NCBI RefSeq assembly: GCF_000429525.1
Contig: NZ_AUCA01000031.1
Span: forward strand, 1 to 42,012
DNA from: Alicyclobacillus contaminans DSM 17975
GTDB taxonomy: Bacteria; Bacillota; Bacilli; Alicyclobacillales; Alicyclobacillaceae
Direction of reading: 5' to 3'
DNA length: 42,012 bases
The position numbers and the translations under genes were made by a program. A model generated the notes under the pieces. The model did no database searches and was not told where the DNA came from. It was given only the letters and a program-made list of their open reading frames with translations. Numbering within the stretch: the first letter of the stretch is position 1; each line of letters starts with the position of its first letter. This document shows, piece by piece, positions 18,393-37,391 of this stretch.

Positions 18393-19622
18393 TTACGCCA
18401 AGCCATTGAGGTGCGCGGTATCCTGGCCGAAGCTGTCCACCAACGCCTGGGTGGCCAAGTGTACATCCCACGCTTCCCAAACCTTCTTGCCGTTCTTCTG
18501 CACATACATGCCGCGCGCTTTCACGACCTTTTGCCACGCCGGAGTGAGGTCGGACACGTAGCTTCCGGCCACCGCCATGGGGCGCAGCTCGGCAAACGTG
18601 AGGAAATGTCCGTTCAGCCAGGCGCCTCCTTGCTGATAGACCTTCGACCAATAGGTGTTCAACCAGTCCAGGCGCTTCCAGTGCAAGCGTTGATACACCG
18701 ACTGGTGGGTCGCCAACGCGGACAGACCGAACAGAGCGTCGCGCGTGGATGTTTCGTTCACGCCGGACCAGGACTGCCCGGAGTGGTCGTAGACAAACCC
18801 GCCGCTCGACTTGTCAAAATAGGACGTGAGCGCTGTGCTTGGCACCCCGTTCTTCTGCACCCAGCTGTCCGGGTTGATACCGAGCGCCTCCAGGGCCTCC
18901 ACCACCACCGCTGTGGAATCGGAATTCGAGTTGTCCGCACTGCCGAATCCGCCATCCGGCGCCTGCTGCGTCTGCAAATACTGCAGCGCCCGGCTGACCA
19001 CCTGGCTGTCCTTGGTATACCCGAGCAGGGACAACGCGTCCAACGCGTAAGCGGTGTCGTCCGGATCGGAATCCGTGCTGGAAGCGGACCAACCAAACCC
19101 GCCGTCCTTGTTCTGGTGCGAAATCAACCAGGCTGCGGCGGACGCCCGATTGTACGACGCATTGCCCGCGGCTTCCAGGGCAATGATGGACCACACCTGC
19201 GCGTTCACCTGGTCAAAGCCGGTGCCATCCATGTTGTCCGCAAACTTGCCTTCGTTGTCGCCGCTCGTTTGCTGTTCCTTGGCCAGCGCTTGGACGTAGT
19301 TCTTGCCCTGATAATTGTGCGGATCGAGCCCCGCGGCCAACAGTCCGAGAATGAATCGGGCATAGTCGGTGGTTGTCTGAAGATTGGAAATTTCCGATGA
19401 AGTCCACGTACTCGCCGAATGCTGCCCGGATACCGCAAACTGTGTGACCAATTTCCACTCGTGATTTGTTGCGTGCGCGCCCATCCATGCGGCACCGGCG
19501 GTGCGTTCCTGCTGGATAGTGGCCGGACTGGCGGAGGCCGGCGCCACGGCCAACGCCACCGTGCAGCTCATGCCGATCAGCGCAGCCGCTGCGGCTCCCA
19601 TACGCAGCACGGACAATTTCAT
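18393..19622 (-). CDS. Secreted alpha/alpha-toroid protein (prenyltransferase/squalene-oxidase repeat), transcobalamin-like
   Basis: The 409-residue protein begins with a signal peptide (MKLSVLRMGAAAAALIGMSC..., cleavage expected near ASASPA) and then has repeated helical hairpins of the terpene-cyclase/prenyltransferase type, with the tell-tale turns DGGFGWSASSTDSDPDDTAY and DGGFGSADNSNSDSTAVV, plus ARFILGLLAAGLDP and TRDALFGLSALA. The same alpha/alpha barrel forms the N-terminal domain of animal intrinsic factor and transcobalamin. It starts within the stop codon of the ECF S-component gene (ATGA overlap) and is the last gene of an operon headed by a cobalamin riboswitch. No terpene-cyclase acidic catalytic motif stands out. 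Role as an extracellular corrinoid-binding half is inferred from context. Confidence 0.85.
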   Translation of the reverse strand: MKLSVLRMGAAAAALIGMSCTVALAVAPASASPATIQQERTAGAAWMGAHATNHEWKLVTQFAVSGQHSASTWTSSEISNLQTTTDYARFILGLLAAGLDPHNYQGKNYVQALAKEQQTSGDNEGKFADNMDGTGFDQVNAQVWSIIALEAAGNASYNRASAAAWLISHQNKDGGFGWSASSTDSDPDDTAYALDALSLLGYTKDSQVVSRALQYLQTQQAPDGGFGSADNSNSDSTAVVVEALEALGINPDSWVQKNGVPSTALTSYFDKSSGGFVYDHSGQSWSGVNETSTRDALFGLSALATHQSVYQRLHWKRLDWLNTYWSKVYQQGGAWLNGHFLTFAELRPMAVAGSYVSDLTPAWQKVVKARGMYVQKNGKKVWEAWDVHLATQALVDSFGQDTAHLNGLA

Positions 19623-20347
19623 GATTCTTCCTCCCCCTTGGAATGCAATCTATTGGATAGAGCACCCTCCGCGCTGCGGTGCACCTGCATCCGCCGGCGG
19701 TAACGCTCGAATTCCCTCATCACAACGGGCCCTGCGACAGCCGTCAGAGCCGCGGTGGTCAACGCATGATTCGTGTCAAACCACACGCTCCGCACACAGA
19801 GCAGCCCATACGCAGCCCAGGAGATGGGGCCGCCGCCCAGCAGCACCTGCAGGTTCATGATCCACCCGAACACGTACCCCCACAGGAACGCAAAAGGCAC
19901 CAGCCACCATACGCGCCAGCGTGGAAACCACTGATGCAGCCATCCTGCCGTCGCGCCCACCAGCCCCCAGGCGAGCATCTGCCAGGGTGTCCACACCCCT
20001 TCGCCGAGAAACAGGTTCGATCCGAGCGCGGTGAATGCCCCCACCGCCGCACCGGTTCCCGGCCCGAACATGTATCCTGCCATGAGGATGATGAACGTGG
20101 CCGGCTGCACGCTGGGGATGCCCTGCACCACCACCCGCCCCACGGAAGCCACGGCCGCAATGGACGCGACCAGGGCAATTTGTTTCGGGTTCATCGCCTG
20201 TCGTTCATACGTTTCCAGCAATGCGAACAGCAGCAGGGCCAACACGGCCACTCCGGTGGCCCACCAGGGCCACCCCTGGACAGTGCCCGCCACGACACAC
20301 GCCACCATGAGCCCGGCTGCCATCCATCCACTCCATCGATGTTTCAT
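19619..20347 (-). CDS. ECF transporter substrate-binding (S) component, probably for cobalamin/corrinoid
   Basis: S-components are small membrane proteins that bind a vitamin and dock onto an EcfT/EcfA energy module. The 242-residue protein has about seven hydrophobic segments. The central block PATFIILMAGYMFGPGTGAA, VGAFTALGSNLFLGEG and WTPWQMLAWGLVGATAGWL is typical of ECF-S proteins of the HMP/cobalamin-precursor type. The C-terminus is basic and cytoplasmic. It overlaps both neighbours by 4 bases (ATGA), so the S unit is made together with its own A and T proteins. Specificity for B12 or a corrinoid is inferred from the riboswitch at the head of the operon and the transcobalamin-like secreted proteins; sequence alone would not decide it. 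Confidence 0.85.
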   Translation of the reverse strand: MKHRWSGWMAAGLMVACVVAGTVQGWPWWATGVAVLALLLFALLETYERQAMNPKQIALVASIAAVASVGRVVVQGIPSVQPATFIILMAGYMFGPGTGAAVGAFTALGSNLFLGEGVWTPWQMLAWGLVGATAGWLHQWFPRWRVWWLVPFAFLWGYVFGWIMNLQVLLGGGPISWAAYGLLCVRSVWFDTNHALTTAALTAVAGPVVMREFERYRRRMQVHRSAEGALSNRLHSKGEEES

Positions 20348-21999
20348 CGGGCCATCCCCACTTTCATGGCGTCCGCCAGACAGTGCACATCGAGATGGAA
20401 CGGTCGAAACGCCCGGGAAATCGTCGGCGCGAACGTCAACGCCCGGCGGAATATCTGCACGGGTGGTCCCTCGAGCACTGCATGTCCAGCATGGAAAAAG
20501 ACCGCGTGGTCGGCGAATTCGGCAGCGAAATCCAAATCATGCGTCGCCATGACGACCGTTCGCCCGTCCTGCTTCAACCAGTTCCCCAGTTCCGCCTTCG
20601 CCGTCACATCCAGACCGCGCGTGGGTTCGTCCAGCAAGAGCAGATCCGGATGACGTACCATCACCGCCGCCACTGCGACCCGCAGTTGTTCTCCGCCGGA
20701 CAACTCCCGGGGATGCCTGTCCACCAACTCGGTCAGAGACAGACGCCGCAACACTTCATCCACCGCAGCCGACGTCGCATCGGCGGAAAGACCGCGAAGC
20801 GTGGCGGCCAGGGCCACTTCGTCCCGCACCGTCCGCTGGCTGAAGTACAGGACCGGATTTTGCGGCACATAGCCGACGCGGAGTTCCCCCGGCTCCCCAG
20901 GTGTGTCCCGCCGCCGACGGATCTTTGCACCGCCTCGGATGTGTCCTCTCACCAACGGCTGCAGCCCCGCCAGCACCCGCAACGCCGTGGACTTGCCCGA
21001 ACCGTTCGGCCCCATCAGGACGGTCAGTTGCCCGCGCGGCACGGAGAACGAACACTCGTCCAGCGCCGGCAGGGACGCCCCCGGGTAGGTCACGGTCGCC
21101 TGACGCAGCGACACCATGGTCTGCACAGACGGTGCCACTGGACAGACCTCTCGGGAAGTGCCGGTCGACGGTTCCGCCCCCTCCTGAAGGCGATGCCGCA
21201 GCGCGTCCCGCACCGCCCGCACCGTCAACAGCGGCCGCGCATCATCCAGCAACAGGCGCGCGAGCGTCGGCGCGGACGCGGGCCTGTGCTCGCGCAGCCA
21301 CGCCGCCGCAGCCGTGGCATCCCCCGCGAACCGCAGACGGCCGCGTTCCAAATACCAAACGTGGTCGACCTCCGCGTAGGCCGGATCGATTCGATGTTCA
21401 CTCATCACAATGGTCAATCCGAACTCCTGGTTCAGCCGCCGAAGCAGTTGGAACCACTCCGCGGCAGCCACCGGATCCAACTGCGCGGTCGGTTCGTCCA
21501 ACACCAGCACCTCCGGCTGGTGGACCAGCGCGGCGGCCAGCGCGACTCGTTGGCGCTGGCCGCCGGACAGCTGGCGAATCTCCGCGTGCACGTAGTCGGA
21601 CATGCCCACCATCTCCAACACCTCGGCGACGCGCCAGCTCATGTCCTCGGGAGGAACTCCGACATTTTCCAACGCAAACGCCACTTCCCGATCCACGCGG
21701 TGGTACACCGCCTCCGCATCCGGATTTTGCCCGACGAAGCCAATGCGCCGCACCCGCTCCAGGGGTTCCAGTTTCGCCACGTCCTTGCCGGCGATGGAAA
21801 TGCGGCCGCGCATCGTTCCCCCGTAAAACTGCGGGCAGGCCCCGGTCAAACACCGCAGCAGCGTCGATTTTCCACTGCCCGTCGGCCCCTGCACCAACAG
21901 CCAGCGGCCGGCCGGCAGCGACACATCCACGTCCACCAGCGCCGGTTCTTCCGCATCGGGATATCGGTATGTGAGGTTGTGCACCGCAATGCTCCCCAT
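20344..21999 (-). CDS. ECF transporter ATPase, two EcfA/CbiO domains fused
   Basis: A 551-residue protein containing two complete ABC ATPase domains that power the ECF importer. Domain 1 (residues ~1-260): Walker A GPTGSGKSTLL, signature LSGGQRQRV, Walker B VLVLDEPTAQLD, switch His in MSEHRI. Domain 2 (~300-535): Walker A MGPNGSGKSTAL, signature LSGGEQLRV, Walker B LLLLDEPTRGLD, and His in ATHDLD. Many Firmicutes encode EcfA1 and EcfA2 separately; here they are one chain. ATG 21999 follows GGGAGGTG, and its A overlaps the stop of ecfT (TAATG). The open frame extends to 22161, but that part is antisense to ecfT and unrelated to ATPases. Confidence 0.95.
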   Translation of the reverse strand: MGSIAVHNLTYRYPDAEEPALVDVDVSLPAGRWLLVQGPTGSGKSTLLRCLTGACPQFYGGTMRGRISIAGKDVAKLEPLERVRRIGFVGQNPDAEAVYHRVDREVAFALENVGVPPEDMSWRVAEVLEMVGMSDYVHAEIRQLSGGQRQRVALAAALVHQPEVLVLDEPTAQLDPVAAAEWFQLLRRLNQEFGLTIVMSEHRIDPAYAEVDHVWYLERGRLRFAGDATAAAAWLREHRPASAPTLARLLLDDARPLLTVRAVRDALRHRLQEGAEPSTGTSREVCPVAPSVQTMVSLRQATVTYPGASLPALDECSFSVPRGQLTVLMGPNGSGKSTALRVLAGLQPLVRGHIRGGAKIRRRRDTPGEPGELRVGYVPQNPVLYFSQRTVRDEVALAATLRGLSADATSAAVDEVLRRLSLTELVDRHPRELSGGEQLRVAVAAVMVRHPDLLLLDEPTRGLDVTAKAELGNWLKQDGRTVVMATHDLDFAAEFADHAVFFHAGHAVLEGPPVQIFRRALTFAPTISRAFRPFHLDVHCLADAMKVGMAR

Positions 22000-22847
22000 T
22001 ACAAACACCTCCCGAGCCAGACGCAGTACACCGCCAGTGTGATCGCCAACCCGGCCTCCGCCCAAGCGGTGCGCTCCGCGCTGACCATCAGCAGCCGACC
22101 GACGGCACACGCGAGAAGGACACCGGCCCCGAACACGATGGCGGTGTCCCAACGGCGCCATCGCACGATGCGAAACACAGTTCGCCGACCGTGCCCGTAG
22201 CCCCGCACGTACATGGATTCAGCCATCTGCCACCCTCGCTCGAGGGCGGTCATCAACAGGGCCTGGTAGACGGTCGCCTGTGCCCGCATCCGCCGCACGC
22301 GCGACATAGCCGTCCCCTCATCCCCACCGCGCTGCAGCCACACCCATTCCGCCAGTCGTTGGCGTTCCTCCAACAGGGTGGGAATGAGACGGATGACCAT
22401 GGCGACCGTCAGACCCACCCGGGCGTAGCGGCGTCCAAACCAGGCGCTGATCACGTCTTCGGTCGCCGCTTCCGAGAAAGCGCTGAAGAGGAGCAGCAGG
22501 CTCCACAACCGGATGGACTGGATGAGCGCTCGCGCGATGCTCTCCACACTGACCGCGGGGGATCCCAACAGCGGAAGCGCCGGTCCCTGCCACCAGATGT
22601 GCTCACCGGGCCGAACGAACCAACAGCCGACCAAGGTGTATATCAGAACTAACGGAACGGCCAGCCGCAACAGAAAGCCCAGTGAGCGGCGGCTGCGCAC
22701 CATTCGCCAGACGAGGCCGACCGCGCACAGACCGTCCACGGCGATGCCGCCCAGCGTCCGCAGGGCGCAGACCGCGCCAAACAGTGCCACAAATCCCACC
22801 AAAAGGGCAAACGGATGGAGCGTCTTCCGCGCCTTGCCGCGCATCAT
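21999..22847 (-). CDS. ecfT: ECF transporter transmembrane component EcfT
   Basis: EcfT (CbiQ family) is the membrane scaffold joining the S-component to the ATPases. The 282-residue protein has several hydrophobic segments in its first half (HPFALLVGFVALFGAVCAL, LLRLAVPLVLIYTLVGCWF) and at the C-terminus. Between them is the cytoplasmic coupling region with RLIPTLLEERQRLAEW and the two short Arg motifs that contact the ATPases (ALERGWQMAESMYVRGYGHG). The start at 22847 lies in the ATGATG that overlaps the DUF4430 stop (ATGA); the longer frame to 23003 overlaps DUF4430 coding sequence. It is coupled at both ends to its neighbours. Confidence 0.9.
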   Translation of the reverse strand: MMRGKARKTLHPFALLVGFVALFGAVCALRTLGGIAVDGLCAVGLVWRMVRSRRSLGFLLRLAVPLVLIYTLVGCWFVRPGEHIWWQGPALPLLGSPAVSVESIARALIQSIRLWSLLLLFSAFSEAATEDVISAWFGRRYARVGLTVAMVIRLIPTLLEERQRLAEWVWLQRGGDEGTAMSRVRRMRAQATVYQALLMTALERGWQMAESMYVRGYGHGRRTVFRIVRWRRWDTAIVFGAGVLLACAVGRLLMVSAERTAWAEAGLAITLAVYCVWLGRCL

Positions 22848-23653
22848 CCGCTGCCCGTGCTGGGATCCCAACTGTGATAGTCCCAAACGTCCACATCTCC
22901 CGCGTGTGGATAAATATCCGCAGCGCCCACAGGCGCCTGCTGATGATTCACGTACAGAAACCAGTCCACCGGCTTCCGCTCGTTGGCCGGAACTCCCGTC
23001 CACTGCGAATGGATACCGTTGATGGACACCATGAAATCGTCGTTGTACGCGGTCTCAATCTGGTAATTTTGGTGCATGTACTGCATCAGCGACTCTCCCG
23101 CCACAATGCGCGGATGTATCTCCGAAATCAAGTGTTGACCGTGATTCTCACTCACAATGATGGTGAACGATCCCAGATTCGGCGCGGGCGCAGTCAATCC
23201 GGTCTTGCCACCGCCTCCCCCGGTCTGCCCGGCACTCGCACCGGACGCCGCACCTTTGGCAGCATGGGTGGTGGTTCCTCCGGAAGCGCCGCTGCCGCTG
23301 GCCGCCGGTTTGGGCGCGGTTGTGGCTGCGCCGCTGGGGCTCGCCGTGGAATGGGCCGATGCGGACGACACATCCTTGCTTCCTCCGCGCTCGGTCGATG
23401 CAGTCGACGGAGCGGCACCGCCGCTCGCCTTCTTGCCAGCGACATGCCCCACTGCGTTGGTGGTCGCGTTGTTCAGGACGACAGGCCCTTCCGGCAGCGT
23501 CGACGAGGATTCATTCGCCGTCCGCGGCAGCGTGCCCAGCCACGCCGACCCAGATGAACCCGCCGGATGCCGCTCGTGTGCGTACAAAACGCCTGTCCCC
23601 ACCGCCGCGGCTGCCACCGCCAACGTGGCCATCCGCCAGATGGTTCGCCGCAT
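22844..23653 (-). CDS. Secreted DUF4430 (transcobalamin-like C-terminal domain) protein
   Basis: The 269-residue protein has an N-terminal signal/anchor helix (IWRMATLAVAAAAVGTGVLY), a ~120-residue Ala/Ser/Thr/Gly-rich linker suited to crossing the cell wall, and a C-terminal DUF4430 domain (about 165-262). The domain's end shows the family pattern PVDWFLYVNHQQAPVGAAD followed by HAGDVDVWDYHSW. DUF4430 corresponds to the C-terminal beta domain of transcobalamin/intrinsic factor. It is the first gene after the cobalamin riboswitch; ATG 23653 has a strong AGGAGGGGGG site, whereas the frame upstream to 23713 runs into the riboswitch terminator. With the toroid protein at the operon's other end it completes a two-part transcobalamin-like pair. 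Confidence 0.88.
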   Translation of the reverse strand: MRRTIWRMATLAVAAAAVGTGVLYAHERHPAGSSGSAWLGTLPRTANESSSTLPEGPVVLNNATTNAVGHVAGKKASGGAAPSTASTERGGSKDVSSASAHSTASPSGAATTAPKPAASGSGASGGTTTHAAKGAASGASAGQTGGGGGKTGLTAPAPNLGSFTIIVSENHGQHLISEIHPRIVAGESLMQYMHQNYQIETAYNDDFMVSINGIHSQWTGVPANERKPVDWFLYVNHQQAPVGAADIYPHAGDVDVWDYHSWDPSTGSG

Positions 23654-23687
23654 ATGCCCCCCTCCTGTCTCATCCCAATCAAAACAA

Positions 23688-23709
23688 ACAGCCCCGCGAA
23701 CGGGGCTGT
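23688..23709 (-). terminator. Terminator of the cobalamin riboswitch expression platform
   Basis: On the minus strand ACAGCCCCG and CGGGGCTGT form a stem with a 4-base loop, followed by TTGTTTTG. It stands between the riboswitch aptamer and the DUF4430 start, so ligand binding would be expected to favour this hairpin and shut the operon off. Confidence 0.85.
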
Positions 23710-23777
23710 GCAAGCATACGCTGGAGAATCCAGAAAACGCTGCCTCACACTTCCCACCGAAGCGGTTGAAACAGTAC

Positions 23778-24018
23778 GGACGATGGGCTGGTCTCCTGAC
23801 TCGTGACTTCTCCTACTCGCCCGCCTTCCCACCTCGCGCCGGGCACATCGGAAACGGTGCCATAGGGCACCTTTGGCGAGCTGTGCTCGCCAGCCGACGT
23901 GGCCCCACACCGACAGGCAGTGGCCAATCGGGATTTCGTCATCACTCACAGTTGCGGGGGCTGCTCCGGATTCGCACCGGATTCCCATTTCACTTGCCCA
24001 CAGGCGAGACCGCCGTCC
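23778..24018 (-). promoter_or_regulatory. Cobalamin riboswitch
   Basis: Read on the minus strand, the region contains the hallmark elements in order: GGGAATCCGGTGCGAATCC, then CAGCCCCCGCAACTGTGA, the B12-box-type GGCCACTGCCTGTCGG, a variable hairpin region with GGTGCC...GGCACC, and the 3' segment GAGTCAGGAGACCAGCCC. GGACG at the 5' side and CGTCC at the 3' side can close stem P1. The aptamer precedes a terminator and then a five-gene operon for an ECF importer and two secreted proteins. Adenosyl- or other cobalamin is the expected ligand; this places B12 control on the whole operon. Confidence 0.96.
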
Positions 24019-24027
24019 AACGAGATG

Positions 24028-24056
24028 AAATTATGACAAACATATATGCCGTGCAA
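24028..24056 (-). promoter_or_regulatory. Probable promoter of the riboswitch operon
   Basis: TTGCAC (24051-24056 on the complement) is followed after 17 bases by TAATTT, or after 15 by CATAAT. The position just upstream of the aptamer fits a sigma-A promoter. The stretch from here to about 24269 holds no gene that I can support. Confidence 0.5.
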
Positions 24057-24297: not shown

Positions 24298-24341
24298 GCG
24301 CTACCATGATTACCGAAGCTGCAGGACGGAGGGACAAAGAG

Positions 24342-25007
24342 ATGGCGAAGAACGAAAAGGCTGTCGTGGTATTCAGCGGCGGCCAGGACAGCACCACCTG
24401 CCTCGCGTGGGCACTGCGCGAATTCCAGAGCGTGGAGGCGGTCACATTTAACTACAATCAGCGCCACGAAGCGGAAATTTCGTGCGCCAAGTCGATTGCG
24501 GCCGAGTTCGGCGTGCGCCACCACATTCTCGACATGGCTCTGTTGAACCAACTGGCCCCGAGCGCCCTGACGCGGCAGGACATCGCCGTGGAAGCCGGGC
24601 GCGACGGCGAATTGCCGTCCACGTTCGTCCCCGGGCGAAACCTGGTGTTTCTCGCGTTTGCTGGCATTCTCGCCCGTCAGGTCGGGGCAAAGCACCTTGT
24701 GACCGGCGTGTGCCAGACGGACTTCAGCGGGTATCCCGATTGCCGGGACGTGTTCATCAAGTCGCTCAACGTCACGCTGAACCTCGCCATGGACGAGGAA
24801 TTTGTGATTCATACACCGTTGATGTGGCTGGACAAGAAGCAAACGTGGGCGCTCGCGGATGAACTGGGCTGCTTCGACCTGGTGCGCGAGCGAACTCTCA
24901 CGTGCTACGAGGGCATCATTGGGGATGGATGCGGCACGTGTCCGGCGTGCGTCTTGCGAAACCGGGGCCTGCAGGCGTACCTCAACGAACGCAATACCAT
25001 CGATTGA
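24342..25007 (+). CDS. queC: 7-cyano-7-deazaguanine (preQ0) synthase QueC
   Basis: QueC converts 7-carboxy-7-deazaguanine to preQ0 using ATP and ammonia, the last step before the queuosine-specific reductase. The 221-residue protein has the PP-loop [14 protein letters not shown] at its start, the [11 protein letters not shown] block, and the zinc-binding cysteines near the C-terminus ([19 protein letters not shown]). ATG 24342 has a CGGAGGGA site; the frame begins earlier, at 24306, with no such site. It is convergent with queE/queD, with a 39-base gap between stop codons. GTP cyclohydrolase and QueF are not in the window. Confidence 0.96.
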
Positions 25008-25046: not shown

Positions 25047-25760
25047 TCACACGCCGCGCCGATTTCCCCACAGCAATACGTGCAATTGCGGCAGGACGCG
25101 GACGTCGTTCATCTCGGGATGCGACGTGACGCGCTCGGTCAACCAACGCAACTGTTCCAACAGTCTGGCCGACACGTCCCCCTCGGCCGCGGTGTCCTCA
25201 TTGCCAACCGAGAGAAAGAAGGGAATGTCCGGCCAGCGCCGGTGCACATCCACCGCGTAGTCGTAATCCGCGTCGTCAAACACCACCACTTTGAAGGAGG
25301 CGTTCAGGGCGTCGGCCCGCACCCGCTCCACGATGTCATCCAGTACGCGCCAGTCGGTGCGCATGCCCGAGCTGGGCGGCTTCGGACTGAGCGTGAGGTC
25401 ATCAATCCAGCGGAACCAATCCCGCCACACACTGCCCTGTGTCTCCAACCCCGTGCGAATGGCGTGCGCCCGCAGCAGCTGGAGAAATTCGGCCATGGCA
25501 TCCCGAATCAGCGCGGGGTTGCCGCCCGAAATTGTGACATAGTCGAAGTTCCCCGCCGCCTGCCGCTGCAGTTCGGCCCAAATCTCCTCCGACGTCATGG
25601 CGACCGCTTTGGCCGAACCGTCCCAGGTGAACTTGGAGTCGCACCAACTGCATTGGTAGTCGCAGCCCGCGGTTCGAACGAACATCGTCTTACGGCCGAT
25701 GGCCATCCCTTCCCCTTGGATGGTGGGTCCGAATATCTCCATCACCGGAATGATGCTCAT
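25047..25760 (-). CDS. queE: 7-carboxy-7-deazaguanine synthase QueE
   Basis: QueE is a radical-SAM enzyme that contracts 6-carboxytetrahydropterin to 7-carboxy-7-deazaguanine. The 237-residue protein has IFGPTIQGEGMAIGRKTMFV at the start and the iron-sulfur motif CDYQCSWC (C-x3-C-x2-C), followed by the DSKFTW and YVTISGGNPAL (SAM-binding GGNP) segments. LTLSPKPPSSGM is also characteristic. Its start overlaps the queD stop by 4 bases (ATGA), so the two are translated together. All motifs needed for activity appear intact. Confidence 0.95.
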   Translation of the reverse strand: MSIIPVMEIFGPTIQGEGMAIGRKTMFVRTAGCDYQCSWCDSKFTWDGSAKAVAMTSEEIWAELQRQAAGNFDYVTISGGNPALIRDAMAEFLQLLRAHAIRTGLETQGSVWRDWFRWIDDLTLSPKPPSSGMRTDWRVLDDIVERVRADALNASFKVVVFDDADYDYAVDVHRRWPDIPFFLSVGNEDTAAEGDVSARLLEQLRWLTERVTSHPEMNDVRVLPQLHVLLWGNRRGV

Positions 25761-26194
25761 GCGTAATCGATACCTTTCTTCGGCCGGAACACCACATAGC
25801 TGGTCGGCGTCTCACGCACCACCACCTGCACGCAATGAGGGCGATTCGGCTTCTTCCGCAGCTCTTCTTCCACGATGCGCCAGATGGTCTCCGCGACCAC
25901 CTCCGTGGAGGGCGGTGTCCCACCCGCATTGAACATGGCCGTATCTTCGTTGAGCAGCCGGTGATCCCAGCGCCCATGCACCAATTCTTTCAGTCGCTGA
26001 AAATTGATAAGAAACCCCATTTCATCCAATTGGTCGCCTGCGATGGTGAGATTGATGAAATACGTGTGTCCGTGCACCCGTTGGCAGATCCCCGCATCCG
26101 GATGGGGAATGTAATGGGCCGCTGCCAACTGCATATCTTTATTCAACTCATAGCGAAAGTTGTGTTGGACCTGCGGGTAAAACTGTTGCAGCAT
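25757..26194 (-). CDS. queD: 6-carboxytetrahydropterin synthase QueD
   Basis: QueD (PTPS family) turns dihydroneopterin triphosphate into 6-carboxytetrahydropterin, the first committed step toward queuosine and preQ0. The 145-residue protein carries the zinc-binding histidines and catalytic cysteine in AAHYIPHPDAGICQRVHGHT, the WDHRLLNED block, and PTSEVVAETI-like PPSTEVVAETIWRIVEEEL. ATG 26194 is preceded by GGGAGGAGG; the frame continues upstream to 26215 without support. First gene of the queD-queE pair, transcribed toward queC. Confidence 0.95.
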   Translation of the reverse strand: MLQQFYPQVQHNFRYELNKDMQLAAAHYIPHPDAGICQRVHGHTYFINLTIAGDQLDEMGFLINFQRLKELVHGRWDHRLLNEDTAMFNAGGTPPSTEVVAETIWRIVEEELRKKPNRPHCVQVVVRETPTSYVVFRPKKGIDYA

Positions 26195-26258
26195 ACGTGG
26201 TCCTCCTCCCTGCACCGCGCTCTGTCACGAGGGATTCGCACAGGCGTCGACGCGCTCG

Positions 26259-27230
26259 TTACAACCACTTTTTCTTGCGAAAGAACCGAATCATGAACCA
26301 ACTCAGGACCACCATCACCAGCATCACCAACACCGTGGATGTCCACTGCCGCTGCAGCGGAATGGGAACATTCATCCCAAAAATCCCCGTGATGAGCGTC
26401 AGGGTTGCGGTCAGCGTGGTGATCACCGTCAATACCCGCATCGTCTCGTTGGTCTTCGCAGTTCCCAACGACGAGTACGTGTCCAGCGCACCAGAGATGA
26501 GGTCGCGGAACACCTCCAGCGAGTCGTTGATGCGCTCCAGGTGATCGTTCAAATCCATGTAGTACGGGATGTTCTCTTCCTGCACCGCGAAGGAGTACGG
26601 TGATCCAACCGATGCAAAGATCCGCCGCTTGGGCTGCACCACCCGCCGAATGGTGACAATGGTGCGATTGAGCGCCATGAATTCCTCCGTGATCTCCATC
26701 GCCGGATGCTCGTACATCTCGTCCTCCAGTTCGTCAATGCGAACCGCCAGACGATCCATGATGGGAAAGTACGTGTCCACAATACCGTCCACGATGGAAT
26801 ACAACAGGAAGTCGGCCCCTTTGTTCATGTACTGGGGCTCCCGAATTGACCGGCTGGCGATCCGCCCGACGGACTGAATCGGATGGCGGTGCACAGTCAC
26901 GATATAGTTGGGCCCGAGAAACACGTTCAGCTCTTCGCTCGTGATTTCCCGTTCGCTCTCTTCATCATACTTCAATGCGTGCAGTTCAAAGAAGTAATAC
27001 CCATCGTACGTATCCACCTTGGCCCGCGGCGAGTCGTGCATGCAGTCCTCAATGGCAAGGGGATGAAAGCCGAACGTTTCCCCAACGTACTTGACCTCCT
27101 GGGCGGACCAGTTAAACAGGTCTATCCACAGCAAACTTCGCGGATTCGCCAGAAGCTGTTCCCGTTGGGTCAAGTCCACGTCGTGAAACATTTGCTTTTG
27201 GTCGTCATCGTAAAAATACGTCTTGATCAT
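26259..27230 (-). CDS. corA: CorA-family magnesium transporter
   Basis: CorA forms a pentameric Mg2+ (and Co2+) channel. The ~323-residue protein has a large cytoplasmic N-terminal domain with the HPLAIEDCMHDSPRAKVDTY block, a long stalk helix, and two C-terminal membrane helices separated by the signature GIFGMNVP (GMN filter). The tail is basic (RFFRKKKWL). The start is set at ATG 27230 because AAAGGGG lies at a normal distance from it, whereas it abuts the ATG at 27239. It is controlled by an M-box riboswitch whose terminator lies between 27288 and 27313. Confidence 0.95.
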   Translation of the reverse strand: MIKTYFYDDDQKQMFHDVDLTQREQLLANPRSLLWIDLFNWSAQEVKYVGETFGFHPLAIEDCMHDSPRAKVDTYDGYYFFELHALKYDEESEREITSEELNVFLGPNYIVTVHRHPIQSVGRIASRSIREPQYMNKGADFLLYSIVDGIVDTYFPIMDRLAVRIDELEDEMYEHPAMEITEEFMALNRTIVTIRRVVQPKRRIFASVGSPYSFAVQEENIPYYMDLNDHLERINDSLEVFRDLISGALDTYSSLGTAKTNETMRVLTVITTLTATLTLITGIFGMNVPIPLQRQWTSTVLVMLVMVVLSWFMIRFFRKKKWL

Positions 27231-27287
27231 ACCGTACATCCCCTTTCCGTCGAACTGTTATGCAGCGACGCGCGAGCGGGGTCATAC

Positions 27288-27313: not shown

Positions 27314-27336
27314 ACACATAACCCAGCCCTTGGCCT

Positions 27337-27500
27337 TCCCCACTCGTCAAAGTTTTAGCACATACATAGCTAGAGCGCGGAACGCTCAGCCACATTAGGC
27401 AAAACCTTAAGCCGGCAATGCCTGTTGACCCAGTTGGCGTCTCTCGACGTTTCCGGGCAGTGGCGTATGATCTATGCAGAAGCCTCACCTAACGAAGAAT
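27337..27500 (-). promoter_or_regulatory. M-box (ykoK leader) magnesium riboswitch
   Basis: Minus-strand sequence matches the M-box in order: GTTAGGTGAGGCT, CCACTGCCCGGAAACGTCGA, GAGACGCCAACTGGGTCAAC, then TTAAGGTTTTGCCTAATGTGG and GTATGTGCTAAA with GACGAGT at the 3' side. The M-box senses intracellular Mg2+ and turns off transporter genes when it is plentiful. It is placed directly before corA, a family target. Confidence 0.96.
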
Positions 27501-27549
27501 CCCTGTATACAGATTTAGCATGGCTGGTCCCAGACCAAACCACATATCT

Positions 27550-35584: not shown

Positions 35585-36022
35585 TCACGTGCGCTTATAC
35601 TCCGCTTCAATGAGTGCAATCAATTCCACATAGTACATGTATTCCAGTTCGTCCGGTACGTCTTCCTCCGTCAACTCCTTCCATTGTCGACGCTGCAGAC
35701 GGTGATCCAGCGTCCGCACCTGCCCCCTCACCTTGTCTCCAAGAAGGTGAAAATTTCTGAAGAGGACCGGTCGAATCCGCTGAACGTACAGCTCAGCATC
35801 CCATCCACGTCCCTTTCCTGGATACAGGATACGCTCTCTGCCGTTCAGGTCGAGCACTTCGTTGTAGGCCAAGTACCGCTGCTCCATCCGCCGCTCCTTC
35901 TGCTCCATTTCGCGAAGATGCTGTTGGATGCGTGTATGCAGGATGTTTCCAAACACGCCGACCGACGCGCCAATCACGCCGGATGCCCCGGAAATCACAG
36001 GCGTGATCCAGTCCATTGACAT
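35585..36022 (-). CDS. Small membrane-anchored protein (145 aa), unrecognised
   Basis: I do not recognise the family. The N-terminus (WITPVISGASGVIGASVGVFGN) is a Gly/Ala/Val-rich hydrophobic helix, followed by a charged coiled-coil segment (RIQQHLREMEQKERRMEQRY) and a mixed C-terminal part with several Arg and Glu (VRTLDHRLQRRQWKEL, DELEYMYYVELIALIEAEY). Two ATG codons (36022 and 36016) are possible, both with weak ribosome binding sites; the open frame continues far upstream across the neighbouring terminator and repeats, which is a shadow. It is convergent with the MoaD-MoaE gene. Confidence 0.65.
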   Translation of the reverse strand: MSMDWITPVISGASGVIGASVGVFGNILHTRIQQHLREMEQKERRMEQRYLAYNEVLDLNGRERILYPGKGRGWDAELYVQRIRPVLFRNFHLLGDKVRGQVRTLDHRLQRRQWKELTEEDVPDELEYMYYVELIALIEAEYKRT

Positions 36023-36126
36023 CACCACAACTATACCTATGCCATCACAACATCGGTCATATCGTGGTGGAATGTGCGCCGCAACGGCACCCCGTACACG
36101 GTTTGCCGGATCCTTGGCCGTGAACG

Positions 36127-36153
36127 AAAAACGGGGAGTTCTCACCCCCCCGT
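36127..36153 (-). terminator. Terminator after the repeat-tailed lipoprotein gene
   Basis: On the minus strand AACGGGG and CCCCGTT bracket a short loop and are followed by TTTTCG, 18 bases after the stop codon at 36171. Confidence 0.8.
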
Positions 36154-36170
36154 TGATGACTTTAGATCTT

Positions 36171-37391
36171 TCAGTTGCCGTTACCTGTACTGTTCCCAGT
36201 ACCCGTGCTGTTCCCGGTACCCGTGCTGTTCCCGGTACCCGTGCTGTTCCCGGTACCCGTGCTGTTCCCGGTGCCCGTGCTGTTCCCGGTGCCCGTGCTG
36301 TTCCCGGTGCCCGTGCTGTTCCCGGTGCCCGTGCTGTTCCCGGTGCCCGTGCTTTTGCCGGTACCAATATTGCTCCCGGTGCTGCCGGTCTTGGGGCGGC
36401 CGCCAGCACTCTGCGGCGGCGTAGAATGGCTCGACGAACCCGTTCCCGAATTCGAAGCCGATTCGTATTTCCCACTGACGGTGACCAGCGTTCCATAATC
36501 AACCAACAACCAAACGGTTTTCGCTGCCGTGTTGGGCAATTCCACACATCCCACGCTCTGCGGATAGCCGTATTCAGACCGTGGGAATCCATGAATTGCC
36601 TCTCCACCATAGAAATAGTTCACATAGGGGACGCCCGGATCCGAGTATTTGCTGCCATCTGGATTGGTCCCCGTCATGGTCTGCGACAGGTAGCGAAGGT
36701 AGATGGCGAATGTACCGTTCGTTGTAGGCGCCAGCGCCACCCCTGTGTTGCACAGGGACGAGAACACCCACCGCCCGGCCTGCCAGACCTTGAGCTGCTC
36801 CGGTCCCGGACTCTCGGTGACGAGGACGTATGTGTACGGTTCCGTATTTGCCTTCGCATCCTTCTCCAGAATTGCCTGCCAAACCTGGGGACCCACCGCG
36901 CCGTCCACCGGCAGCCCGTATTGATGCTGCAAAGCCATGACGGCACCGCGCGTCATTTCCGTATACGTCTGGGGCTGCCACAAGCTTTTCAACTCAGACG
37001 GAATGTTGCCATACCGCCAGGTAAACTGTGCGTCCGGCGGATGACTCAGGTTGCTCTCCGTAACGTCGGGATCGCCACCCGATATTTCCAAGGGCAAAAA
37101 CCCCAGTTCTGCCAGGCGTTCATTCAGCGCCAGCACCGCAGGACCGGTGGTACCCAGACCAAAGGAAGGGTACTGTGTCGCATCCGAAATCTCTTTGGCT
37201 TGTGGGCCTGCGTCCTGTCCGGTCTGCGTCGTCGCGGCGTCCGGCGTGTCGGTCGCGTTGTTCCCCAGCGGAACGTCGGACAAGTCAGCCGAATATGACT
37301 TCGCACCAGCAAACCATCCACACCCCACAGACATTGCACTCAGTATCACGACAATCCCAGTCATCAGCGCTCTGTTTCTCCGCATCTTCAT
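36171..37391 (-). CDS. L,D-transpeptidase-like lipoprotein with (TGTGNS)n tail
   Basis: Paralogue of the gene at 15438-16370. The ~406-residue protein has a lipoprotein signal (LSAMSVGCGW), a linker, a peptidoglycan-binding-like part (YPSFGLGTTGPAVLALNERL; AVMALQHQYGLPVDGAVGPQVW) and a YkuD domain ending in GEAIHGFPRSEYGYPQSVGC, then VELP. As in the paralogue, the usual SHGCVR is SVGCVELP. Unlike the paralogue it ends in ~90 extra residues: a Ser/Gly linker and nine TGTGNS hexapeptides, closing with TGNGN. The tail is encoded by an 18-bp tandem repeat. ATG 37391 is taken as start (37385 also possible). The polar repeat may span or attach to the cell wall. Confidence 0.82.
   Translation of the reverse strand: MKMRRNRALMTGIVVILSAMSVGCGWFAGAKSYSADLSDVPLGNNATDTPDAATTQTGQDAGPQAKEISDATQYPSFGLGTTGPAVLALNERLAELGFLPLEISGGDPDVTESNLSHPPDAQFTWRYGNIPSELKSLWQPQTYTEMTRGAVMALQHQYGLPVDGAVGPQVWQAILEKDAKANTEPYTYVLVTESPGPEQLKVWQAGRWVFSSLCNTGVALAPTTNGTFAIYLRYLSQTMTGTNPDGSKYSDPGVPYVNYFYGGEAIHGFPRSEYGYPQSVGCVELPNTAAKTVWLLVDYGTLVTVSGKYESASNSGTGSSSHSTPPQSAGGRPKTGSTGSNIGTGKSTGTGNSTGTGNSTGTGNSTGTGNSTGTGNSTGTGNSTGTGNSTGTGNSTGTGNSTGNGN
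36190..36351 (-). repeat. 18-bp tandem repeat, nine copies, coding (TGTGNS)n
   Basis: Nine head-to-tail copies of CTGTTCCCGGTACCCGTG (plus-strand view). The first copy has CAGTACC, the next three have CGGTACC, and the last five have CGGTGCC, so variants lie in blocks rather than mixed. The unit is a multiple of three and the frame is kept throughout, so copy-number change would lengthen or shorten the tail without breaking the gene. Flanking half-units (36352 onward and around 36180) are diverged. Confidence 0.95.

Follow-up and report, generated by a model that had tools for sequence, protein, structure and literature searches.

We analyzed a 42,012-nt stretch of DNA (the window; contig NZ_AUCA01000031.1 of assembly GCF_000429525.1) from Alicyclobacillus contaminans DSM 17975, in which a cobalamin (vitamin B12) riboswitch precedes five genes on the minus strand. 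The genes follow in the order DUF4430, EcfT, fused EcfA, S-component and alpha/alpha toroid (Table 1). Since EcfT, a pair of ABC ATPase domains and an S-component are all present, the operon encodes an energy-coupling factor (ECF) transporter that brings its own module. The overlaps between adjoining genes (4, 1, 4 and 4 bases) make it likely that the five genes form one coupled unit. For the DUF4430 gene, the ATG at 23653, with AGGAGG in front of it, is the best start. The riboswitch aptamer matched RF00174 over the full model (1-189) with 105.8 bits (E = 1.2e-25; gathering threshold 31.5), and the same aptamer was recovered in a whole-genome search of the source assembly. Terminator-like sites are no more frequent in this region than in shuffled sequence (4 versus 4.6), so the weight given to the hairpin at 23709-23688 rests on its position and its 9 pairs, 7 of them G-C. 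A first-pass annotation had placed one operon behind a cobalamin riboswitch in the interval 18393-24056, and the aptamer match and gene overlaps bear this out over the whole interval. Comparative evidence supports well the view that this is a B12 operon in which extracellular transcobalamin-like proteins feed an ECF importer.

Table 1. Features of the riboswitch-linked operon in the window
Feature	Position	Strand	Basis and remarks
Cobalamin riboswitch aptamer RF00174	23768..24029	-	Rfam covariance model; long insert in one peripheral stem
Terminator-like hairpin and T-rich tail, between aptamer and first gene	23688..23709	-	9 pairs, 7 G-C; likely expression platform, from position
DUF4430 protein, 269 amino acids	22844..23653	-	PF14478; N-terminal hydrophobic segment, Ser/Gly/Ala/Thr-rich linker, C-terminal DUF4430 domain at ~22874-23098
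EcfT transmembrane coupling protein	21999..22847	-	Weak CbiQ match; EcfT profile across relatives
Fused EcfA1-EcfA2 ATPase, two ABC domains in one chain	20344..21999	-	Two ABC_tran stretches; TIGR04520
S-component, CbrT family, predicted cobalamin/cobinamide binder	19619..20347	-	6fnp_A match and profile match
Alpha/alpha toroid protein, 409 amino acids	18393..19622	-	(alpha/alpha)6 barrel at residues ~23-306; C-terminal extension of ~100 amino acids, no Pfam match

The gene set is conserved in relatives. DUF4430 was found in 12 of 61 genomes and in 10 of 37 from the same family, the source genome counted. All nine same-family relatives with DUF4430 keep the five genes in identical order, which excludes a chance grouping, and in eight of them a riboswitch lies upstream of the operon. 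The four nearest loci in the named collection are from Alicyclobacillus. Across Bacillota, DUF4430 was present in 126 of 398 genomes, and we examined the loci of 60 of these (L062-L121). The 60 are mostly better-scoring matches and do not sample the 126 at random; where several genomes belonged to one genus some were passed over, and a number of stretches stop at contig ends. Counting features anywhere in the stretch on either strand, we found an S-component of the window's family in 51 of the 60 loci, a toroid in 49, EcfT in 45 and a cobalamin riboswitch in 46. Toroid, S-component, EcfT and riboswitch occurred together in 38.

A second survey was anchored on the S-component. From 581 confirmed stretches the best 80 were taken, every one of which has the pattern G[QE]G[PGI]WTPW; the other genes were not selected for. 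Among the 65 loci with at least 8.5 kb upstream, DUF4430 was present in 63, a toroid in 59, EcfT and EcfA in 64 and an upstream riboswitch in 53 (in all 80 loci: DUF4430 73, toroid 63, riboswitch upstream 57). The full combination of DUF4430, toroid, EcfT/EcfA and riboswitch was found in 50 of the 65. The first-pass annotation had suggested surveying how often both domains occur with B12-riboswitch ECF operons. In both samples the two domains steadily accompany the riboswitch and the ECF genes.

The riboswitch association does not depend on our survey profile. That profile was refined on the same loci, and it missed a weak riboswitch at L062 that the Rfam model finds. We therefore note the independent result of the Rfam model on 20 whole genomes hand-picked from the 60, which gave 106 matches at E<=0.001, 103 of them over the family cut-off. 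In all of the 20 genomes but G122 (19 of 20), the fetched DUF4430 stretch contained at least one riboswitch. These stretches hold 23 of the 106 matches while making up ~0.6% of the sequence; the expectation from sequence share is ~0.7 matches by hand arithmetic from rounded genome sizes. Six of the 20 genomes have a single cobalamin riboswitch, and in each case it lies inside the DUF4430 stretch. Presence in the stretch does not always mean a position upstream of the operon: L065 has two behind the operon and two more just before the stretch. In these counts (8 of 9, 46 of 60, 53 of 65 and, among genomes drawn from the 60, 19 of 20), relatives of the operon mostly do have a B12 riboswitch, so the pattern that the first-pass annotation named as refuting its reading did not turn up. 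Three loci (L082, L087 and L102) combine a riboswitch with toroid/DUF4430 genes, and no S-component or EcfT was found in the stretch; the L082 gene runs off the contig end.

The importer core is of a known kind. Taken singly, EcfT (CbiQ, E = 5e-4) and the S-component (PF12822, E = 4.2e-6) fall below the Pfam cut-offs, and both were recovered by profiles across relatives. Against PDB sequences, the window S-component alone found only 6fnp_A (E = 3.8e-12, residues 48-219). A profile of 20 S-components found 6fnp, which is CbrT from Lactobacillus delbrueckii, at E = 8.5e-29, the next entry being 4hzu at 6e-4. By sequence we assign the window S-component to the CbrT family and predict that it binds cobalamin or cobinamide. 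CbrT is a proven S-component for both ligands: it is reported to bind cobalamin at ~9 nM and cobinamide at 36 nM, and uptake of both has been shown for ECF-CbrT of L. delbrueckii (PMC5997447). A search of 397 Lactobacillaceae genomes gave CbrT matches in 43, and since the best was only 67% identical, L. delbrueckii itself is absent from this set. In 10 of 10 close homologues examined (62-67% identity; 43 genomes matching), a DUF4430 gene lies directly upstream of the S gene. The gene preceding cbrT has been named cbrS (PMC5997447) and is probably a DUF4430 gene. The CbrT-family S-component and the DUF4430 gene upstream of close CbrT homologues mean that the importer core is not new. The dedicated importer proposed in the first-pass annotation thus stands in that EcfT, fused EcfA and the S-component share the operon, and its core belongs to a described family. 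A literature search of an open library (titles and abstract openings) gave no description of this operon among the matches listed, so the earlier impression that the system had not been described holds, within those matches, for the whole operon and not for its core. In a tree of S-components the window falls in a different clade of the CbrT family from 6fnp; this clade has 10 rows, 9 with a riboswitch. The tree is rooted at the midpoint only, and it and the toroid tree described below are quick trees with long-branch warnings.

We next describe the two proteins encoded at the ends of the operon. The window DUF4430 domain matched PF14478 with 41.0 bits (E = 2.8e-10; gathering cut-off 23.8) and occurs once in the source genome. 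The protein lacks cysteine and has a long linker between its hydrophobic N-terminus and the DUF4430 domain. The toroid protein matched SQHop_cyclase_C (E = 1.5e-9) and Prenyltrans (E = 1.5e-8), both above cut-off. Its N-terminus, judged by eye, resembles an ordinary signal peptide, and the protein seems to be exported. The predicted structure (pLDDT 85.5) is an (alpha/alpha)6 barrel with a weakly predicted C-terminal part; this extension (residues ~307-409) is common to the toroids of the window's family and has low model confidence. The best fold matches of the model are prenyltransferases and squalene-hopene cyclase. Searches with toroid profiles gave no transcobalamin or intrinsic factor up to E=0.01 (profile A3) or E=0.1 (profile A5). 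Profile A5 also reaches alpha-2-macroglobulin, and its best match is squalene-hopene cyclase (7.3e-39). On these grounds we rejected the idea that the toroid is a specific transcobalamin homologue by sequence. A partial match to the SCO2321 family NF053823 (62.6 bits, far below the cut-off of 300) does not make the toroid a member of that family.

The likeness to transcobalamin comes from structure prediction on a fused relative. In the Paenibacillus locus L157, a toroid and a DUF4430 domain lie in one chain, and the 417-residue part holding both was modeled with pLDDT 89.8. The first 15 Foldseek matches of this model were all transcobalamin, haptocorrin or intrinsic factor (E=1.4e-10 to 1.2e-8). 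Rank 16 was the transcobalamin beta domain alone (E=2.4e-4, TMt 0.73), and cyclases followed from 3e-4. VIA-align aligned L157 with transcobalamin over 329 residues (Z 19.0, rmsd 19.2 A), the ranges covering both domains (27-409). The barrel alone aligned with squalene-hopene cyclase over 244 residues (Z 22.0, 2.9 A), and this score is higher than that of the whole chain with transcobalamin because the two domains are posed differently. In the model, it is the second (DUF4430) domain that appears to make the likeness of L157 to transcobalamin specific. The fused protein also has three SLH domains, which would anchor it to the cell wall. The resemblance to transcobalamin and intrinsic factor claimed earlier for the window proteins was seen on the fused relative, and the window toroid alone is closest to cyclases and prenyltransferases.

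Relatives of the operon differ in how the two domains are arranged. Most often the riboswitch is followed by a large fused toroid+DUF4430 protein and then by a small DUF4430 protein, EcfT, EcfA1A2 and the S-component; a number of loci have one further stand-alone toroid. A fused chain was additionally present in 51 of the 65 S-anchored loci and in 39 of the 60 DUF4430-anchored loci. The window has separate partners only. A toroid tree with 112 members (61 stand-alone, 51 fused) places the window and its nine relatives together, and their group joins further stand-alone toroids and not the fused ones (19 rows, support 82; the branch is not starred). Judged by the commonest layout and this grouping, the window looks like the usual set minus the fused protein, a reduced kit. 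The proposal that the two domains are split holds for the window, where they are encoded by two genes at opposite ends of the operon, and it is not the rule among relatives. We conclude that the gene set is widespread in Gram-positive bacteria, that it uses an importer of known type, and that the split form is one arrangement among several. Four archaeal loci from DHVE2, Aciduliprofundum and Thermoplasmata metagenome-assembled genomes (L150, L152, L174 and L183) encode DUF4430-EcfT-EcfA-S; neither riboswitch nor toroid was seen in these, three of which are short contigs. This suggests either transfer between domains or an old system. Separately, L031, L067, L160 and L190 encode very large exported proteins of up to 1,769 amino acids, in which a single chain holds as many as four DUF4430 and two toroid domains.

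From the gene content, regulatory element, family memberships and co-occurrence that we observed, we infer the following scheme for riboswitch direction, binding, assembly and hand-over. When cell cobalamin is low, the riboswitch would let transcription pass the terminator. EcfT, fused EcfA1A2 and the CbrT-family S-component would form an ATP-driven ECF importer of cobalamin and, judging from the family, probably of cobinamide. Outside the membrane, the DUF4430 domain on its long flexible tether would play the part of the transcobalamin beta domain, and the secreted toroid that of the alpha domain. Together the two would enclose one B12 molecule and hand it on to the S-component. In most surveyed relatives, the extra exported two-domain chain would add a further capture step that is absent from the window operon. 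Such a split carrier is physically workable, since human transcobalamin alpha and beta domains made separately are reported to co-elute only with cyanocobalamin (PMC5599065). We consider it probable that this is a dedicated corrinoid uptake operon whose exported pair closes on B12 and hands it to an ECF-CbrT-type importer. On the narrower proposal of a natural split transcobalamin, in which two separately exported proteins close on one cobalamin and deliver it to ECF-CbrT, we are evenly divided.

Several observations weigh against this reading. When PDB sequences were searched with the DUF4430 profile, TC-2 (transcobalamin beta) came no higher than eighth of 15 entries, at E=1.8 and after seven unrelated ones; the sequence likeness to transcobalamin is at noise level. 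The window toroid aligned with squalene-hopene cyclase over 253 residues (Z 23.8, 2.7 A), and neither transcobalamin nor intrinsic factor was among the 50 best fold matches listed, which is no evidence of a different fold. At residue 295 the window toroid has Asp, a position occupied by Gln in 49 of 65 aligned toroids. The transcobalamin-like model was obtained from L157 and not from the window pair, and its domains take another relative pose than in transcobalamin (rmsd ~19 A over both). No riboswitch was found upstream in 12 of the 65 S-anchored loci, nor, even at E=0.5, upstream of the same five-gene operon at L024. Among 20 fetched Lactobacillaceae loci, L214 alone has a same-strand riboswitch, and L218 has one on the opposite strand; seven of the 20 (L211-L215, L228 and L229) encode toroid, DUF4430, EcfT, EcfA and S in order, L214 being the only one of these with a same-strand riboswitch. 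Finally, the source genome has both a BtuF/C/D-type set and a corrin biosynthesis operon, which leaves the need for the window system unexplained.

The similarity of the toroid to enzymes raises the possibility that DUF4430 is the sole exported corrinoid handler and that the toroid is otherwise employed, for example as a cyclase-like enzyme or a wall- or polymer-binding protein. In fold and sequence the toroid is nearest to squalene-hopene cyclase and the prenyltransferases, and it is absent from 6 of the 65 S-anchored loci and from DUF4430+S pairs. The motif of class II terpene cyclases is DXDD, and the window toroid keeps a DPDD segment. The last Asp of this segment is found in only 5 of the 65 aligned toroids, however, and two of the 10 family toroids have DSND. 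Since the motif is not kept across the toroid family, we rejected assignment as a class II terpene cyclase on this basis. Apparent export would also suit a terpene cyclase poorly, and the toroid and DUF4430 domains of L157 together best match full-length transcobalamin and intrinsic factor. We regard a separate employment of the toroid as unlikely.

The cargo might instead be a B12 precursor or part (cobinamide, other cobamides or dimethylbenzimidazole) or cobalt, with the organism completing the cofactor itself. The 3.27-Mb assembly (111 contigs) has three cobalamin riboswitches. The second (L004) precedes the BtuF/C/D-type set (binding protein, FecCD permease and ABC ATPase), and the third precedes the corrin biosynthesis operon, whose genes were recognized by eye from translations. 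Completion of a precursor would be compatible with these genes, and CbrT is reported to take cobinamide as well (PMC5997447). Against this stand the CbrT-like S-component and the transcobalamin-like capture domains, which would point to a whole corrinoid. A Pfam scan of the window proteins gave no match to a CbiM-type cobalt component, and we dropped cobalt import by the operon. A precursor or cobalt as cargo seems to us somewhat less likely still than another employment of the toroid. The genome also encodes a class II ribonucleotide reductase and has four matches to B12-binding domains, which suggests that the source organism uses B12.

The lactobacilli raise the question of whether the operon imports heme or another tetrapyrrole. 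Verplaetse et al. are said to have described in 2020 heme uptake by a five-gene ECF operon, lsa1836-1840, of Lactobacillus sakei. The S-component family of the window is present in 42 of 151 Lactobacillaceae genomes, and the five-gene loci noted above mostly have no same-strand riboswitch. A paper on Staphylococcus lugdunensis mentions the report of a heme-importing L. sakei ECF operon (PMC7299338). If that operon is the one considered here, the substrate can shift within the family. The window operon and eight of its nine family relatives, by comparison, have a cobalamin riboswitch, and the riboswitch-less lactobacilli fall in several groups of the midpoint-rooted S-component tree, all apart from the window's clade. 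We read them as perhaps reflecting a later shift, and consider a heme or other tetrapyrrole importer in the window very improbable.

Other features of the window lie outside the operon. A queC gene (24306-25007, plus strand) stands beside it, with radical-SAM (QueE-like) and PTPS (QueD-like) genes nearby (25047-26215, minus strand). A queuosine link to the operon was dropped, as tblastn found queC in 0 of 16 relative loci. An M-box magnesium riboswitch (27332-27503, minus strand; 130.8 bits) lies directly upstream of a CorA-type Mg transporter gene (26259-27239, minus strand). An open reading frame at 35588-36610 (minus strand) matches the DUF1388 repeat and may owe this to low sequence complexity, in which case it would not be a true gene.

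In the usual account of ECF transporters, it is the S-component in the membrane that captures the substrate. Exported proteins like transcobalamin and intrinsic factor, in a set that is widespread and tied to a riboswitch, would add a capture step to ECF transport and suggest a role for DUF4430 and toroid surface proteins in many Bacillota. Such a set would also give a bacterial counterpart of the animal B12 carriers, which bears on how members of soil and gut communities compete for B12. If the capture scheme is true, the operon encodes an ECF transporter with dedicated extracellular capture, a prokaryotic parallel and perhaps a relative of the vertebrate carriers.

We compared the operon with known systems. 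ECF-CbrT of L. delbrueckii (PDB 6FNP) is likewise an ECF importer, with an S-component of the same family by sequence and DUF4430 beside its close homologues. The window adds a fused EcfA, an exported toroid and a riboswitch, and it encodes its own module, whereas the single ECF module used by CbrT is described as also serving other S-components (group II, PMC5997447). BtuFCD also combines extracytoplasmic capture with ATP-driven B12 import, but its binding protein is unrelated and its membrane machinery different. LhaSTA of S. lugdunensis, compared by description and not by sequence, is an ECF transporter for a large tetrapyrrole-type cofactor as well; it is reported to be iron regulated (PMC7299338) and is not under a cobalamin riboswitch. 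As regards the SCO2321 family, the window toroid matches part of its model but falls below the cut-off; an actinomycete metagenome-assembled genome (L184) has riboswitch, DUF4430, ECF genes and toroid together. Transcobalamin, haptocorrin and intrinsic factor have the same two folds, and the fused relative L157 matches all three; TCN proteins are reported to have a C-terminal DUF4430 domain (PMC4350170). These animal carriers hold both domains in one chain and work with endocytosis, whereas the window system is bacterial, has the domains in two genes at opposite operon ends and stands beside an ECF importer. The window pair may thus work like transcobalamin, but we do not file it as transcobalamin because its domains are encoded by two separate genes.

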